A DNA stretch of 64,000 bases, taken from contig CAMBYG010000001.1 of the NCBI GenBank assembly GCA_945872085.1, forward strand, positions 98,297-162,296. The letters run 5' to 3'. Under the pieces are notes generated by a model. That model did not search any database. It saw only the letters and a program-made list of their open reading frames with translations, and had not been told where the DNA came from. This document shows, piece by piece, positions 39,364 through 45,322 of the stretch (the first letter of the stretch is position 1; each line of letters starts with the position of its first letter). The DNA is from Chitinophaga pinensis (lineage in GTDB: Bacteria > Bacteroidota > Bacteroidia > Chitinophagales > Chitinophagaceae). Made by a program: the position numbers and the translations under genes.

Positions 39364-40095
39364 TTGAGCCTCTTTTCTCGACTGCATATTCGCTATTTAT
39401 TTTCACGCAATAAGGCGTTATTTGTTCAATTAGAACACGTATTAGGTTTCCAACCTAAGCAATTACGCTTTTACGAAATTGCCCTTACACACCGCTCAAG
39501 CTCCGATGAAATCAGCAGAAACAACGAGCGTCTAGAATTTTTAGGCGACGCTATGCTGGGTGCTATTGTAGGTGAATTTTTATTTAGAAAATATCCTAAT
39601 CAAGACGAAGGCTTTCTTACCGAAATTAGATCGCGTATTGTTAGAAGAGAATCTTTAAATGCCATTGCAACAAGAATGGGCATTGAAAAAATTGTTCAAT
39701 ATAATAAATATGATCGCGGTTTGAGTCGCTCGCATATTTTTGGTAATGCCTTAGAAGCATTGATAGGTGCTATTTATCTCGACAGAGGCTATGAACTCAC
39801 CCGAAAATTTGTACTGAATGAGCTTATTAAAAATTATATCGATCTTGATACCATTGAGAAAACGGATACCAATTATAAAAATCAATTATTGACCTGGGCT
39901 CAAAAAAACATGGTGAGCATCGTATTTGAAGAGTTAGACGAACAACAAGAAGGTATTAAACGCATGTTTACCATCGGCATTAAAATGGACGAAACCATTA
40001 TTGCCACAGGCAACGGTTATAATAAAAAAGATGCAGGGCAAGTAGCCGCAAAAAATGCTATGCAGCATTTAGGAATTTCTAATAAACGAAATTAA
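39364..40095 (+). CDS. rnc: Ribonuclease III
   Basis: This 243-residue double-strand-specific endoribonuclease processes rRNA and mRNAs. The catalytic signature NERLEFLGDAMLG (residues about 57-69) and the second acidic cluster at FGNALEALIGAIYLDRGYE are intact. The C-terminal dsRNA-binding domain ends in GQVAAKNAMQHLG. The start is TTG at 39364, 2 bp after the fabF stop, so coupled translation is likely. Its last 4 bases overlap the convergent small membrane-protein gene. Confidence 0.96.
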   Translation: MSLFSRLHIRYLFSRNKALFVQLEHVLGFQPKQLRFYEIALTHRSSSDEISRNNERLEFLGDAMLGAIVGEFLFRKYPNQDEGFLTEIRSRIVRRESLNAIATRMGIEKIVQYNKYDRGLSRSHIFGNALEALIGAIYLDRGYELTRKFVLNELIKNYIDLDTIEKTDTNYKNQLLTWAQKNMVSIVFEELDEQQEGIKRMFTIGIKMDETIIATGNGYNKKDAGQVAAKNAMQHLGISNKRN

Positions 40096-40445
40096 TCGAC
40101 ATCGATATTTAAACTGTGAAATAAGCGGTGCGCCATCGGTGCTAATATTAAACCGATGTTGGTAATAAAGGCCACTCCGCTAAACAAAGCATAGACCGAA
40201 CTAAATAATTTTCCACCTACAGAATTAATTTGCACTACAGGACCCATACCACTCAAAATCATAGAAGCGTTGTGCAATGCATCGATCCATGGAACACCAT
40301 CGGTATAATGATAACCCAAAACACCAATAGCTAAGCAGGCCAATAAAACAGTGAATGCAAAGAGTATATTTTTTAGCACCCGCTTCAAGTATACCGCTTT
40401 GCTTGCCAATGCTTGATTCCTTTTTTCAAATTTATGAAAGATCAT
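40092..40445 (-). CDS. Two-helix membrane protein resembling an ion-channel pore with degenerate filter
   Basis: This 117-residue protein has a basic N-terminus, one transmembrane helix at residues about 26-47 (NILFAFTVLLACLAIG), a re-entrant-like segment at 52-72 (PWIDALHNASMILSGMGPV), and a second helix at 83-108 (VYALFSGVAFITNIGLIL). The order helix, DAL-x-(S/A)-x-x-L-x-GMG-P, GKLFSSVYALFSG, helix is that of two-helix potassium channels, where TVGYGD would stand in place of SGMGPV. The usual filter residues are absent, so potassium selectivity is doubtful. I know no named family. It is convergent with rnc and 9 bp upstream of paaD on the same strand in coordinates, so it probably follows paaD in transcription. 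Confidence 0.65.
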   Translation of the reverse strand: MIFHKFEKRNQALASKAVYLKRVLKNILFAFTVLLACLAIGVLGYHYTDGVPWIDALHNASMILSGMGPVVQINSVGGKLFSSVYALFSGVAFITNIGLILAPMAHRLFHSLNIDVD

Positions 40446-40454
40446 ACGCTAGTT

Positions 40455-40943
40455 TTAATGACATTTAAAATGCTCAAACGGTTCTTGGCAATGATTACAT
40501 TTATATAAAGCCTTGCAAGATGTGGCTCCAAATTGACTGCTTAATTGTGTATCAACAGATTTGCATTTTGGACAAGTTACAGCATCTTCTTCGAAGAGCC
40601 CAAGAGGAGCAGCCGATTTTCTTTTGGGCGGTGCTATACCATAAGCCTCTAATTTTTCTTTCCCTTTTTCCGACATCCAATCGGTTGTCCAGGAAGGACT
40701 AATCTGATTTTCTACTACTACTTTTTTTGCACCTTTGCTCAACAAACACATTTTAATTTGCATAGCAATAACATCCATAGCCGGACAACCACTATAGGTA
40801 GGTGTTATCACTACCCGTATTGTTTCTATAGTACTATCTACTTCTACTGCACGCACAATGCCTAAATCTACAATAGAAAGCACCGGCACTTCGGGATCGG
40901 CCACTTCTTCTAAATACGCCCAACAATTATCTACGGTAATCAT
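40455..40943 (-). CDS. paaD: Phenylacetyl-CoA epoxidase subunit PaaD
   Basis: This 162-residue protein has an N-terminal MIP18/DUF59 domain (VADPEVPVLSIVDLGIVR, then TYSGCPAMDVI) and a C-terminal zinc-ribbon-like part with CPKCKS and CKALYKCNHC. This is the architecture of PaaD (PaaJ in older naming), needed to mature or assemble the iron-containing epoxidase. The start overlaps the stop of the large membrane-protein gene by 17 bp, so translation is coupled to that gene rather than directly to paaC. Confidence 0.93.
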   Translation of the reverse strand: MITVDNCWAYLEEVADPEVPVLSIVDLGIVRAVEVDSTIETIRVVITPTYSGCPAMDVIAMQIKMCLLSKGAKKVVVENQISPSWTTDWMSEKGKEKLEAYGIAPPKRKSAAPLGLFEEDAVTCPKCKSVDTQLSSQFGATSCKALYKCNHCQEPFEHFKCH

Positions 40944-43203
40944 TACTTAAAATGTGATTGTTTAAAATAAAATAAGATGCATTTAAAACATCGAAACGAC
41001 TAGTAGCTATCGGTCTAATTTCTAAACGATCTATAGCTATAAAGTTATTACAATCATTCGGCATTATTTTAACTAAAACATAGGCCGTATTTTTTGGAAT
41101 TGAAAAATAGGTTTTCGCTCTATACCAGACTTGCCAACTATCATCTGCAGTTTTTGCATTAACATCTACCTGTTGCAATTGTTCTTGATTAGCATTATAA
41201 AAACAAATTGAAAAATAAGGGTATTTTAAATTGTCTTTTGTGTAGTCAACCCAAATAGAAAACTCGTTTAATGATGTGGTATTCAACTGTTCAACTGGAA
41301 TACGAGCCAATACGGTATCTTTCAAATAATCTTGCCACGCAAATGCTCTACCTCGAATTCCATTTCCAGTTCCCTGCTCAAATTCATTGAGATAATAAAC
41401 AGTATGTTTAGGATTGGCAGCAAGAATACAAGAATCAATCACTTTTTGTTGTAGCTGCAAATATTGAGCTACGGATAAACGATACACATATACTTCATCA
41501 AAAAATCCTAAACTATCACAAGCATTTAATAAGCCTTGTTGATCTGGAGTGATACAATTTTCTTCTTTTAATCGTAATACTAAAATATTTTTTGTTGACG
41601 GCAGTTTTTTAAATAATGCATGATCAACAAAATAACCTGCATCAAATTTAACTTGCTCAAATGATTGCGACCACGAAGCTCTTGCTAAAAGTGCATTCAT
41701 CATAGGCAAACCCAACTCATATCCTATAATAGCATTCTCACTAAGCATCCAAGTATTAGTAACCACACCTTCTCTCCAAATTTTATCTGAACCCACATGA
41801 ATAAAGGGCACAGCAGCAATACACTGAAAATCATTTTTTGAATAGCCTTTAGATTGCAAGAACGATTCCCAAGAAGCCTGGTTGAGTCTGTGGAAATAAT
41901 CAAAATTACTTTTATAAGCCACTGCATTTTGTTTCATATACAATATGCGTCCATTGGCATCTATTAGCCAAATGAAACAGGCCAGTGCAATGATGATCAT
42001 GCGCACTTTTTTAGATAGCAACTGCGATTGATATACCTTGCTCATAGCAACCACTACCAACAAAGTAGCTACATAATAAAAATACCAACTAAACCTACCT
42101 AAGCTTCTAAATTGTTTTAAGAAGGGTGCATAATGAAATAAACGATCCATACCAATCGTCAAATGCAAGCCCATAGCAAAGAGCAATAAGAGCACTGCGC
42201 TAATAAAAAATACGGCTTCTATAGTACGAAGGAAAGGATACTTTTTATGGATTAGTATTTGGAAGACATAATAAAAAGCTATAATCAGCAAACTACTAAT
42301 GGGAATAATGCCCAAATAACACAAACCTTCAGTAACATCATTAACATTGGCAATAAAACCTTTGTCTTGAAAAAAATCGATGATTGTTGAAAATGGATCG
42401 GCAATGAAATCAATAAAATTAGTTTTATAGGTTAGATGCCCTCCAGGATTTGTAGGTCGATCTAAAATGGGATCTGTGAAATATAAAAAGACTTTCACTA
42501 GCCCTAATATGAATACGGGAATAGCATTAATAGCTACTAGTATTCGAATTTTATTTTCCTTTACTAAACAATAATATACCAATGTAAAAGATAGGCTCAT
42601 GAGCAATAAAAGCCCAGCAAAATAAAGATGTAAAAAACTAGCCGTAAAATTCAAAAGCAGTAAATAAAGGAGATACTGTTTCTTTTCTGTCTTACTAAAC
42701 TTCAAAATAAAATAAAGCCACATAGGTATAATATGCGCGAAGCTTAAACCATAGTGTGCTTGCGTTCGTAATAATTGTGGAGAAAGCAATACAATTAATA
42801 ACGACGTAATGGTGCTTAGCCATTTTGGAACTTTATATTCGTTTAGAAATAGAAAACAGTAATAACTTGCAAGAAAATAAGAAAGGGCTATACTTTCAAA
42901 AAAAACAAAATTGACGAAGCCTATGCCCAAATTAAAATGATGTACTAAAAAGGAAAGGGGCACCGACAAGAGCGGTTCGTTGTCGGTATAGATAACATGA
43001 TCTCCAAATGGATAATGCATACCGGTATAATGAAACCCATAACCATGCATAGCATGATTTAAAAAACAGTAATAATTTTTAAGTCCATCCCCGCCAAGGG
43101 TTATTACACTACTATTGAAATGAACGATATAATCAAAAAAAACATAGCCAATTACAAGAAGTAAAATGGCTATGTAACTAATATTCGTTTTTTTTAAAAA
43201 CAT
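40927..43203 (-). CDS. Large polytopic GT-C-like membrane protein inserted in the paa operon
   Basis: This protein has about 758 residues. The ATG at 43203 (MFLKKTNISYIAILLL) is chosen; starts at 43245 or 43344 would overlap paaC with a hydrophilic stretch that is out-of-frame paaC code. Residues 1 to about 425 hold 11-12 transmembrane helices. The first periplasmic loop has GGDGLKNYY and HYPFGDHVIYTDNEP, an acidic loop like that of GT-C glycosyltransferases, and RSLGRFSWYFYY stands near the last helices. The C-terminal 330 residues are soluble and beta-rich, ending in a galactose-binding-like module (FSICFYN...AIDRLEIRPI). No link to phenylacetate breakdown is known. It lies 35 bp after paaC and overlaps paaD. 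Confidence 0.75.
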   Translation of the reverse strand: MFLKKTNISYIAILLLVIGYVFFDYIVHFNSSVITLGGDGLKNYYCFLNHAMHGYGFHYTGMHYPFGDHVIYTDNEPLLSVPLSFLVHHFNLGIGFVNFVFFESIALSYFLASYYCFLFLNEYKVPKWLSTITSLLIVLLSPQLLRTQAHYGLSFAHIIPMWLYFILKFSKTEKKQYLLYLLLLNFTASFLHLYFAGLLLLMSLSFTLVYYCLVKENKIRILVAINAIPVFILGLVKVFLYFTDPILDRPTNPGGHLTYKTNFIDFIADPFSTIIDFFQDKGFIANVNDVTEGLCYLGIIPISSLLIIAFYYVFQILIHKKYPFLRTIEAVFFISAVLLLLFAMGLHLTIGMDRLFHYAPFLKQFRSLGRFSWYFYYVATLLVVVAMSKVYQSQLLSKKVRMIIIALACFIWLIDANGRILYMKQNAVAYKSNFDYFHRLNQASWESFLQSKGYSKNDFQCIAAVPFIHVGSDKIWREGVVTNTWMLSENAIIGYELGLPMMNALLARASWSQSFEQVKFDAGYFVDHALFKKLPSTKNILVLRLKEENCITPDQQGLLNACDSLGFFDEVYVYRLSVAQYLQLQQKVIDSCILAANPKHTVYYLNEFEQGTGNGIRGRAFAWQDYLKDTVLARIPVEQLNTTSLNEFSIWVDYTKDNLKYPYFSICFYNANQEQLQQVDVNAKTADDSWQVWYRAKTYFSIPKNTAYVLVKIMPNDCNNFIAIDRLEIRPIATSRFDVLNASYFILNNHILSNDYRR

Positions 43204-43238: not shown

Positions 43239-44063
43239 CTACCATTCCATATTTGGATACGCTCTTTGCAAATACTGCATTTCGGCAAGCATATATCCTA
43301 AATGCTCGGTATGCACCCCATTCTTGCCACCTGTTTGCATCCAAGCGGCAGTTGGCATTTGCAAACCTGCTTCATTTACAATAGCTTCGATTTGCTGCTG
43401 ATAAGCTTGCTGTAAACTACTTACATCTACACCTATGTTTGCTTGCATTGCTGCTTGTTCTATTGCATTCATAGCAAATAATTCACCTGTATATTCCCAA
43501 CGTGCTTGTAAGGCTTGCTGCATTTTTTCTTTACTAATATCGGTGCCGTCGCCTAGACGGATAACCCATTCGCTAGCCCATTTAATATGATATTGTACTT
43601 CTTTCAACGATTTTTCTGCAATTGCAGCTAAAGTACTATCCGTACTTTTTTGAAGGGCTGTAAATAATAAATATTGGAATCGATCGAAAAAGAAAGAGCG
43701 TGCTACCGTATAAGCCCAGTCACCATTTTCCTGCTCTACTAATAAACAATTTCTAAAATCCCATGCATCTCGGAGATACGCTAAATCATCTTCCGTAATA
43801 GTATGTTGATTATTAATTTTCTCTTGCAATAATGGTGCATTAAATAAATGCGCTTTATCTGCTGCTGGCATATTATTGATGATAAGCGCAGCATATTGAT
43901 ATAAAGATCGTGCTTGCCCAATCTGATCTAAAGAAATATTTGTTAAGGCAATATCTTGTTCCAAGATAGGCCCTTTGCCGCACCATGCTGCTAATCGCTG
44001 TCCCATAATAAGCACATTATCGGCTAACTGCAGGGTGTATTTTAAAGTTGTTATAGAGCTCAT
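43239..44063 (-). CDS. paaC: Phenylacetyl-CoA epoxidase structural subunit PaaC
   Basis: This 274-residue ferritin-like four-helix protein pairs with PaaA and gives the epoxidase its structure. Recognisable are LADNVLIMGQRLAAWCGKGP (first helix), ALTNISLDQIGQARSLY, NGDWAYTVARSFFFDRFQY and KEVQYHIKWASEWVIRLGDGT. The end reads HTEHLGYMLAEMQYLQRAYP, as in the family. It follows paaB by 16 bp. Confidence 0.95.
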   Translation of the reverse strand: MSSITTLKYTLQLADNVLIMGQRLAAWCGKGPILEQDIALTNISLDQIGQARSLYQYAALIINNMPAADKAHLFNAPLLQEKINNQHTITEDDLAYLRDAWDFRNCLLVEQENGDWAYTVARSFFFDRFQYLLFTALQKSTDSTLAAIAEKSLKEVQYHIKWASEWVIRLGDGTDISKEKMQQALQARWEYTGELFAMNAIEQAAMQANIGVDVSSLQQAYQQQIEAIVNEAGLQMPTAAWMQTGGKNGVHTEHLGYMLAEMQYLQRAYPNMEW

Positions 44064-44079
44064 AGCTATATCTTAAAAC

Positions 44080-44373
44080 CTACATGTGCTTAAGCTCATC
44101 AGGCAAATTATAAAAAGTGGGATGTCTGTAGATTTTATCTTGAGCTGGGTCAAAGAAAGCAGCTGCTTCTTCTGGATTAGAGGCATGTATATGATTACTT
44201 TCTACCACCCAAATGCTTATTCCTTCCATACGACGCGTATATACATCGCGTGCATTTTCTATAGCCATTTGCGCATCTGCAGCATGCAAACTTCCTGCAT
44301 GTTTATGATCTAAACCTGCTTTACTTCTAATGAAAACCTCCCACAAAGGCCATTCCTTATTTTCGTTGCTCAT
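44080..44373 (-). CDS. paaB: Phenylacetyl-CoA epoxidase subunit PaaB
   Basis: This small subunit has about 97 residues. The start at 44373 (MSNENKEWPLWEVFIRSKAG) matches the family; a longer reading from 44451 would run through the paaA stop region. Conserved segments are WEVFIRSK-GLDHKHAGSLHA, DAQMAIENARDVYTRR and the end DKIYRHPTFY-LPDELKHM. PaaB bridges the PaaAC core in the multicomponent epoxidase. It starts 10 bp after paaA. Confidence 0.95.
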   Translation of the reverse strand: MSNENKEWPLWEVFIRSKAGLDHKHAGSLHAADAQMAIENARDVYTRRMEGISIWVVESNHIHASNPEEAAAFFDPAQDKIYRHPTFYNLPDELKHM

Positions 44374-44383
44374 ATAAATAAAT

Positions 44384-45322
44384 TTAAGCTGCTTTTTTTG
44401 TTTTTCTTTTTTCTGCATAAGCACTGGCTGCTTCGCGCACCCATGCGCCATCTTCCCATGCTTTTACACGAGTAGCTAGGCGTTCTTTATTGCAAGGGCC
44501 ATTACCTTTTACTACATTCCAAAATTCGTCCCAATTCAATTCGCTAGAATCATAATGTCCTCGTTCTTCGTTCCATTTTATGTTGGCATCTGGCAATTCT
44601 AATCCTAATATTCTTATCTGCTCTACGGTAACATCTATAAAACGCTGACGTAATTCGTCGTTGGTAAAGCGTTTAATTCTCCATTCCATACTTTTTGCCG
44701 TGTTTGGACTTACCGCATCTAGCGGACCAAACATCATAAGTGCTGGAGCCCACCAACGATTTAAGGCATCTTGTGCCATTTGCTTTTGTACAGGGGTACC
44801 CTTAGCAAGAGATAGCATAATTTCATATCCTTGACGTTGATGAAAACTTTCTTCTTTGCATACGCGTACCATGGCTCTAGCATAAGGACCATAAGAGGTT
44901 CTGCACAAAGGCACTTGATTCATAATCGCCGCACCATCTACCAACCAACCAATAGCACCCATATCAGCCCAAGTGATAGTAGGGTAATTAAATATAGATG
45001 AATATTTAGCTGCACCTGTATGAAGTTGATGCAACATTTGATCGCGCGTAATGCCCAATGTTTCGGCAGCGCTGTATAAATATAATCCATGTCCGCCTTC
45101 ATCTTGCACTTTAGCCAACAGTACTGCTTTTCTTCTCAAGGATGGCGCACGGGTAATCCAGTTCGCTTCTGGCAACATGCCCACAATTTCGCTGTGTGCA
45201 TGCTGTGAAATTTGACGAATCAATGTTTTTCTATACTCATCAGGCATATAATCCTGAGGCTCGATCATAATTTCTTCATCTATTTTCTTTTGAAAAGATG
45301 CTTCAAAGGATACTTGTGTCAT
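44384..45322 (-). CDS. paaA: Phenylacetyl-CoA epoxidase catalytic subunit PaaA
   Basis: This 312-residue di-iron subunit epoxidises the aromatic ring of phenylacetyl-CoA. Iron-binding helices contain [17 protein letters not shown] and [15 protein letters not shown], the ExxH-type pairs of bacterial multicomponent monooxygenases. A lysine-rich tail ends the protein. It is first in the operon paaA-paaB-paaC-membrane protein-paaD. The reductase PaaE, the ligase PaaK and the ring-opening enzyme PaaZ are not in the window. Confidence 0.96.

Follow-up and report, generated by a model that had tools for sequence, protein, structure and literature searches.

The 758-residue membrane protein encoded between paaC and paaD in this Chitinophaga pinensis genome is likely a GT-C glycosyltransferase. 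Probably, it derives from a pair of neighbouring GT2 and GT-C genes that entered the paaC-paaD junction of the phenylacetyl-CoA epoxidase operon a single time, early in the bacterial family, and was then inherited together with the operon and frequently lost. The window, i.e. the whole stretch of 64,000 nucleotides that was analysed, carries the genes concerned on its minus strand in the following order:

44384-45322, minus strand: paaA, phenylacetyl-CoA epoxidase subunit (TIGR02156, 521 bits)
44080-44451, minus strand: paaB (TIGR02157, 145 bits)
43239-44063, minus strand: paaC (TIGR02158, 274 bits; HMM match in two pieces)
40927-43203, minus strand: likely GT-C-type membrane glycosyltransferase of 758 residues, without a Pfam or NCBIfam family (topology and profile comparison)
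40455-40943, minus strand: paaD, the first 17 bp of which are shared with the GT-C gene (TIGR02159, 190 bits)
40092-40445, minus strand: membrane protein of 117 residues, without a family, frequent 3' of paaD or of the GT-C gene

PaaA, PaaB, PaaC and PaaD all score above the Pfam and NCBIfam cut-offs, so that paaA-D of the epoxidase operon are all present. The open reading frame of the polytopic protein begins with an ATG at 43203, 35 bp beyond the end of paaC at 43239, and runs past the start of paaD at 40943; these coordinates agree with the placement of the gene between paaC and paaD in the sequence-only reading. Between 39900 and 45700, no terminator-like site was seen on the coding strand, the sole one found being on the plus strand, and the genes are probably co-transcribed. 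The GT-C gene is at the same place in all three genomes examined from the window's genus. In three within-genus comparisons, its dN/dS is 0.10-0.12 (0.04-0.08 for PaaC and 0.05-0.08 for PaaD), and thus the gene is under purifying selection. The 117-residue membrane protein also adjoins the GT-C gene in two g6 genomes that have no paaD there.

Topology and family assignment

When hydropathy was averaged over the family (alignment A2, 27 homologues), 11 helices were obtained, with the N terminus assigned to the inside by the positive-inside rule; the window sequence alone, under a stricter threshold, yields 8. The earlier count was 11-12 helices. In the accessible parts of PMC11127046 and PMC5836110, GT-C enzymes are defined by 7-13 transmembrane helices and a catalytic extracytoplasmic loop after the first of these; the window protein has 11 predicted helices and a 70-residue predicted periplasmic loop 1. 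The following regions stand out:

42913-43122, minus strand: predicted periplasmic loop 1, residues 28-97, with the invariant D39 (GGDG) and the conserved GMHYPFGDH
42316-42483, minus strand: predicted periplasmic loop 7, residues 241-296, with the motifs TDP...DRP and EG..YLG
40930-41412, minus strand: C-terminal beta-sandwich domain, CBM-like, residues 598-758 (model pLDDT 63.8)

Across the 27-homologue alignment, D39, M62, Y64, P65, R249, E292, Y296, Q364-R366, G369, R370, R508, S649 and W651 are invariant, as are P142, Y194 and G298, which are at or near helix ends; apart from the start methionine, every invariant residue lies in a loop predicted to be periplasmic or at the outer end of a helix. 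A strict DXD motif is absent: there is one invariant aspartate in loop 1, i.e. D39, which may have a catalytic role, and D244 and D248 in loop 7 are nearly invariant.

The C-terminal 161 residues form a nine-stranded sandwich in a predicted model of modest confidence, so that the prediction bears out the beta-rich C-terminal domain of the sequence-only reading. The closest matches to this model (Foldseek TM up to about 0.54, VIA Z 7-9) include carbohydrate-binding modules of families CBM22, 65, 16 and 27. Tailspike, viral capsid, toxin-component, seipin and accessory-secretion proteins match as well, and because of these sandwiches other than CBMs the label is limited to 'beta-sandwich, CBM-like'. 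A full-length model built from three close sequences was unusable (pLDDT 37.4).

Searches with the window protein returned no Pfam family at E ≤ 1, weak NCBIfam matches alone (E of 0.06 or weaker, none near the cut-off) and no match in the PDB sequence search, including to any solved GT-C. In profile-to-profile comparison with hhalign, the GT-C profile matches a set of 16 YfhO-type proteins of relatives with a probability of 95.9 (pairwise E of 5e-9), the same set without its strongest YfhO member with 92.5, and a four-protein PMT_2 set, three members of which were scanned and all match PMT_2, with 95.0. Among 16 other polytopic sets, the top scores are 28.1 and 7.7, and 14 sets score below 3; the set scoring 28.1 is without an accepted Pfam match and appears GT-C-like by eye. 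Against the GT-C assignment, two of these low-scoring sets, the two-member PMT/PMT_2 sets 13 and 14, score just 2.5 and 1.1; most of the control sets are shallow (2-4 rows), compared to 16 rows in the YfhO set. Membership in the YfhO family itself (PF09586) was rejected, given that the Pfam test failed and that no YfhO match was found in the 27 homologues at E ≤ 0.1.

Taken together, the topology, the profile comparison and the C-terminal model make a GT-C glycosyltransferase the best and a likely identification. The earlier description of the protein as GT-C-like is thereby strengthened by its topology and by YfhO and PMT_2 scores that far exceed those of most other sets, except that two PMT/PMT_2 sets went undetected. 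These results point to a GT-C family that lacks a Pfam or NCBIfam model and often has a GT2 partner.

Distribution and partner genes

Profile searches detected homologues in 64 of the 394 genomes of the bacterial family, distributed over 22 of its 101 genera; phylum-wide, 5 of 296 genomes match, including the window's own. The place of the GT-C gene was read in 59 of the 64 genomes, leaving out weak or partial matches in five (G074, G203, G224, G286 and G344) along with second weak GT-C matches in some others. A copy was considered paa-linked if paaC and/or paaD is on the same strand and no more than 2.6 kb away. Such copies are present in 34 of the 64 GT-C-bearing genomes (33 from tree rows, plus G323) and in nine genera (g1, g6, g42, g46, g50, g62, g89, g94 and g97), and in the 27-homologue alignment, 11 linked homologues of other genera share 25-29% of their residues with the window protein. 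The distance from the GT-C gene to paaD, overlaps included, is at most 50 nt in 22 of the 28 junctions, which fits an operon arrangement. Among all 70 GT-C rows, 34 are paa-linked and 36 are away from paaC and paaD.

These numbers bear on the idea that the gene is a recent chance insertion that left the reading frame intact; the sequence-only reading had considered a chance insertion that kept the operon whole. In operons without the glycosyltransferase (hereinafter GT-less), paaC and paaD are mostly close, within 150 bp in 22 of 26 among the matches listed, and this speaks for such an insertion. However, the presence of the gene in all three genus members examined, its position at paaC or paaD in nine genera, the low identity between these copies and the broad agreement between the GT-C and Paa trees described below refute it by distribution, and we regard it as exceedingly improbable.

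An adjacent GT2 gene of the polyprenyl-phosphate-sugar-synthase type was identified in 31 of the 70 homologue rows, 20 of them linked and 11 unlinked, and many operons have the layout paaABC-GT2-GTC-paaD. All four adjacent GT2 proteins scanned match PF00535, and in a profile comparison with solved structures, ArnC, GtrB (sll0501) and dolichol-phosphate-mannose synthase rank first. The adjacent GT2 proteins share the invariant stretches TDxDxPY and DTQCGLK, which we take to resemble those of ALG5/DPMS-type enzymes. Because more than half of the GT-C rows are unlinked, and 11 of these have the GT2 gene, the pair appears to be a self-contained glycosylation module. Outside paa operons, two or three GT-C genes of the P0001 type are also found in tandem around a single GT2 gene (L093:3664-11525 and L096:6033-11609).

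At the place of the GT-C gene, no GT2 gene was found in the window's genus, in the g94 and g6 operons, in G282 (g42) or in G298 (g97). A profile built from nine adjacent GT2 proteins finds no partner-level GT2 in the window genome (95% complete, in 95 contigs), the best match scoring 80 bits vs. 241-398 for the adjacent GT2 proteins themselves; a complete three-component glycosylation system was therefore rejected for this genome. Unlinked relatives beyond the clade do have the adjacent GT2 gene, so that its absence from the window's genus is more simply read as a loss. The genome does encode one GtrA_DPMS_TM protein, away from the GT-C locus, and other GT2 proteins, one of which (PF00535) is directly 5' of a PMT_2 gene and forms with it a second GT2/GT-C pair (L063:1465-3620).

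Among known systems, multi-component transmembrane glycosylation systems come closest, and the window protein would correspond to their GT-C component. As described in the accessible parts of PMC5836110 and PMC8035078, CsbB-GtcA-YfhO is a three-component glycosylation system of Bacillus subtilis. Like that system, so far as those parts describe it, the homologue loci have a GT2/GT-A gene adjoining a polytopic GT-C gene, and the GT-C protein has a large, predicted extracytoplasmic C-terminal part as well as profile similarity to YfhO. Unlike it, the window protein has no Pfam YfhO match, belongs to a Bacteroidota host, is embedded in a catabolic operon and, in the window's genus, is without the GT2. 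The O-antigen modification systems GtrB-GtrA-Gtr and GT136 (ORF12), covered by the accessible part of PMC11127046, combine in the same logic a polyprenyl-phosphate-sugar synthase, a flippase and a GT-C, and the GT-C of GT136 also has a CBM; here, in contrast, no flippase gene was seen within the module, and the likeness to GT136 is one of description. With respect to the phenylacetyl-CoA epoxidase operon paaABCDE, the locus has paaA, B, C and D in the same order on one strand, and differs in the glycosyltransferase gene or genes between paaC and paaD.

On the model of these systems, the GT-C would work in the inner membrane and transfer a sugar from a polyprenyl-phosphate carrier at the periplasmic face to an acceptor in the envelope, which the C-terminal CBM-like domain may hold. 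The GT2 of the presumed ancestral pair would charge the carrier lipid with the sugar, in the manner of the CsbB-YfhO and GtrB-Gtr systems. Within the window's genus, the pair seems to be reduced to the GT-C alone, and another GT2 of the genome, along with its GtrA-type protein, may supply the donor.

History at the paaC-paaD junction

In the GT-C tree, all 34 linked rows belong to one clade of 44 rows (support 92/83, increasing to 99/98 when the window's genus, a long branch, is removed), in which the other 10 copies are unlinked. The GT-C trees exclude identical rows as well as reading frames shorter than 640 residues (the short type, fragments and the broken copies in G388 and G247), and the careful tree further omits nine long or distant rows. 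The PaaA-D tree places every one of the 29 GT-bearing operons in a single group of 48 rows (SH-aLRT 86), and none of the 14 rows outside the group is GT-bearing. The other 19 rows of the group are labelled GT-less, including G171, where a GT-C gene is with paaD, and G156, where the contig ends 180 bases past paaC. The match to TIGR02158 in two pieces, as observed for the window's paaC, is a feature of the operon clade that bears the GT-C gene. In both trees, the basal position is taken by the window's genus.

The two trees are largely congruent. On 14 representatives, hand-picked from 28 paired loci, 8 of 11 splits are shared by the GT-C and Paa trees (shuffle mean 0.29; none of 5000 shuffles as high), and on nine genus representatives, the shared splits are 4 of 6 (reached in 7 of 5000 shuffles) or 5 of 6 (0 of 5000); this test was run after a Mantel test. 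The Mantel test itself was significant at the tip level (0 of 2000), but significance was lost at the genus level, both with g1 (349 of 5000) and without it (1313 of 5000). The Paa topology was marginally rejected by the GT-C data (AU 0.048), and the GT-C topology was strongly rejected by the Paa data (2e-6). Because the distance test is not significant at the genus level and each dataset rejects the topology of the other, some swaps are likely.

The junction also holds genes other than GT-C genes of the P0001 type. PMT_2 proteins, another kind of GT-C, occur there in G372, G393 and G282, and in G026, G169, G392 and G264, a small TonB_C protein is encoded between the two paa genes, with or without a GT-C gene. 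In G011, a polytopic protein of 506 residues without a Pfam match fills the gap, and in G038, which is outside the clade, an Rce1-like protease is at the junction. The positions are:

L076:3572-5071, L078:4212-5840 and L085:9149-10672: PMT_2 proteins
L123:7000-7449, L114:7420-7815, L089:2446-2892 and L097:8957-9394: TonB_C proteins
L127:6198-7718: polytopic protein of 506 residues

Relics of the GT gene were sought in GT-less operons with tblastn and HMMs, and none was recognised. The short matches obtained correspond to the out-of-frame end of paaC or to the ends of flanking genes, and a longer weak match in L127 (25.5% over 137 residues) falls within the 506-residue membrane protein.

This variety of occupants could mean that a permissive junction took up GT-C genes several times, with functions not tied to phenylacetate. 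The unlinked copies in the linked clade (10 of 44 rows) and the 6-7 changes between linked and unlinked that the GT-C tree requires are compatible with repeated insertion. Against it, the shared splits are far above those of the shuffles, and the same genus is basal in both trees, so that we consider repeated insertion unlikely. The best reading of the trees is a single early entry of the pair, followed by mostly vertical inheritance with the operon, losses in many lineages, and some exchanges or movements out of it.

Relation to phenylacetate breakdown

The GT-C protein might be a functional membrane partner of the epoxidase pathway, altering the envelope when aromatic CoA esters are broken down or with the products of that breakdown. 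In favour of this, the genes stay linked in several genera although the locus itself has broken up. In five g89 loci (L035, L079, L081, L083 and L103), paaC, GT2 and GT-C genes are together with no paaA or paaB in about 5 kb upstream of paaC; in g6 and g62, the GT-C gene remains beside paaABC, and the stretch read contains no paaD; and in three g97 genomes (G171, G298 and G221), it is found beside paaD, and the stretch read contains no paaC. The genomes with both types of PaaC, moreover, are all GT-bearing (7 of 7 among the matches listed): both types are present in 7 of 14 GT-bearing vs. 0 of 18 GT-less genomes (0 of 17 without G156) or, by genus, in 4 of 7 vs. 0 of 11, all counts being uncorrected for kinship. 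In these seven genomes, the two co-occurring types are the one with the split match to TIGR02158 and the ordinary one.

However, 36 of the 70 homologue rows have no paa linkage, at least 17 genomes of the clade (with G171 and G156 uncounted) have this type of paaC with no GT-C gene behind it, and the traits of the family indicate sugar transfer and not CoA chemistry. The GT-less operons were taken from the best matches listed, so that their counts are lower bounds, and were drawn from 195 genomes, compared to 394 for the GT-bearing rows. Overall, a functional partnership seems very unlikely. The link from CoA-ester flux to an envelope glycolipid, put forward in the sequence-only reading, is unsupported; the 36 copies away from paaC and paaD, 11 of them with a GT2 gene, point to a self-contained module. 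Because other genes share the junction, and given the unlinked rows and the clade members whose paaC is without a GT-C gene, we favour a glycosylation module that is a passenger at a tolerant junction over a metabolic partner.

PaaZ is above the cut-off in all 17 genomes searched, and phenylacetate-CoA ligase (TIGR02155) has no match in either of the two genomes of the window's genus that were searched (G000, i.e. the window genome, and G017). In the open-licence PMC text searched, none of the titles and abstract openings listed concerns a glycosyltransferase inside a paa operon; the accessible part of PMC13186573 does not mention 'bacteroid', 'glycosyl' or 'chitinophag'.

It is conceivable, albeit quite unlikely, that this type of epoxidase operon is a composite unit in which catabolism and envelope glycosylation are expressed and selected together; if so, the cell surface would be re-glycosylated while aromatic CoA esters and reactive epoxides are processed. 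Operon position alone would mis-assign the GT-C protein to phenylacetate metabolism. A likely surface-glycosylation gene appears to have stayed in a catabolic operon while at least nine genera diverged, and this presents a testable case for whether long-kept operon mates without an obvious link to the pathway are selected together.
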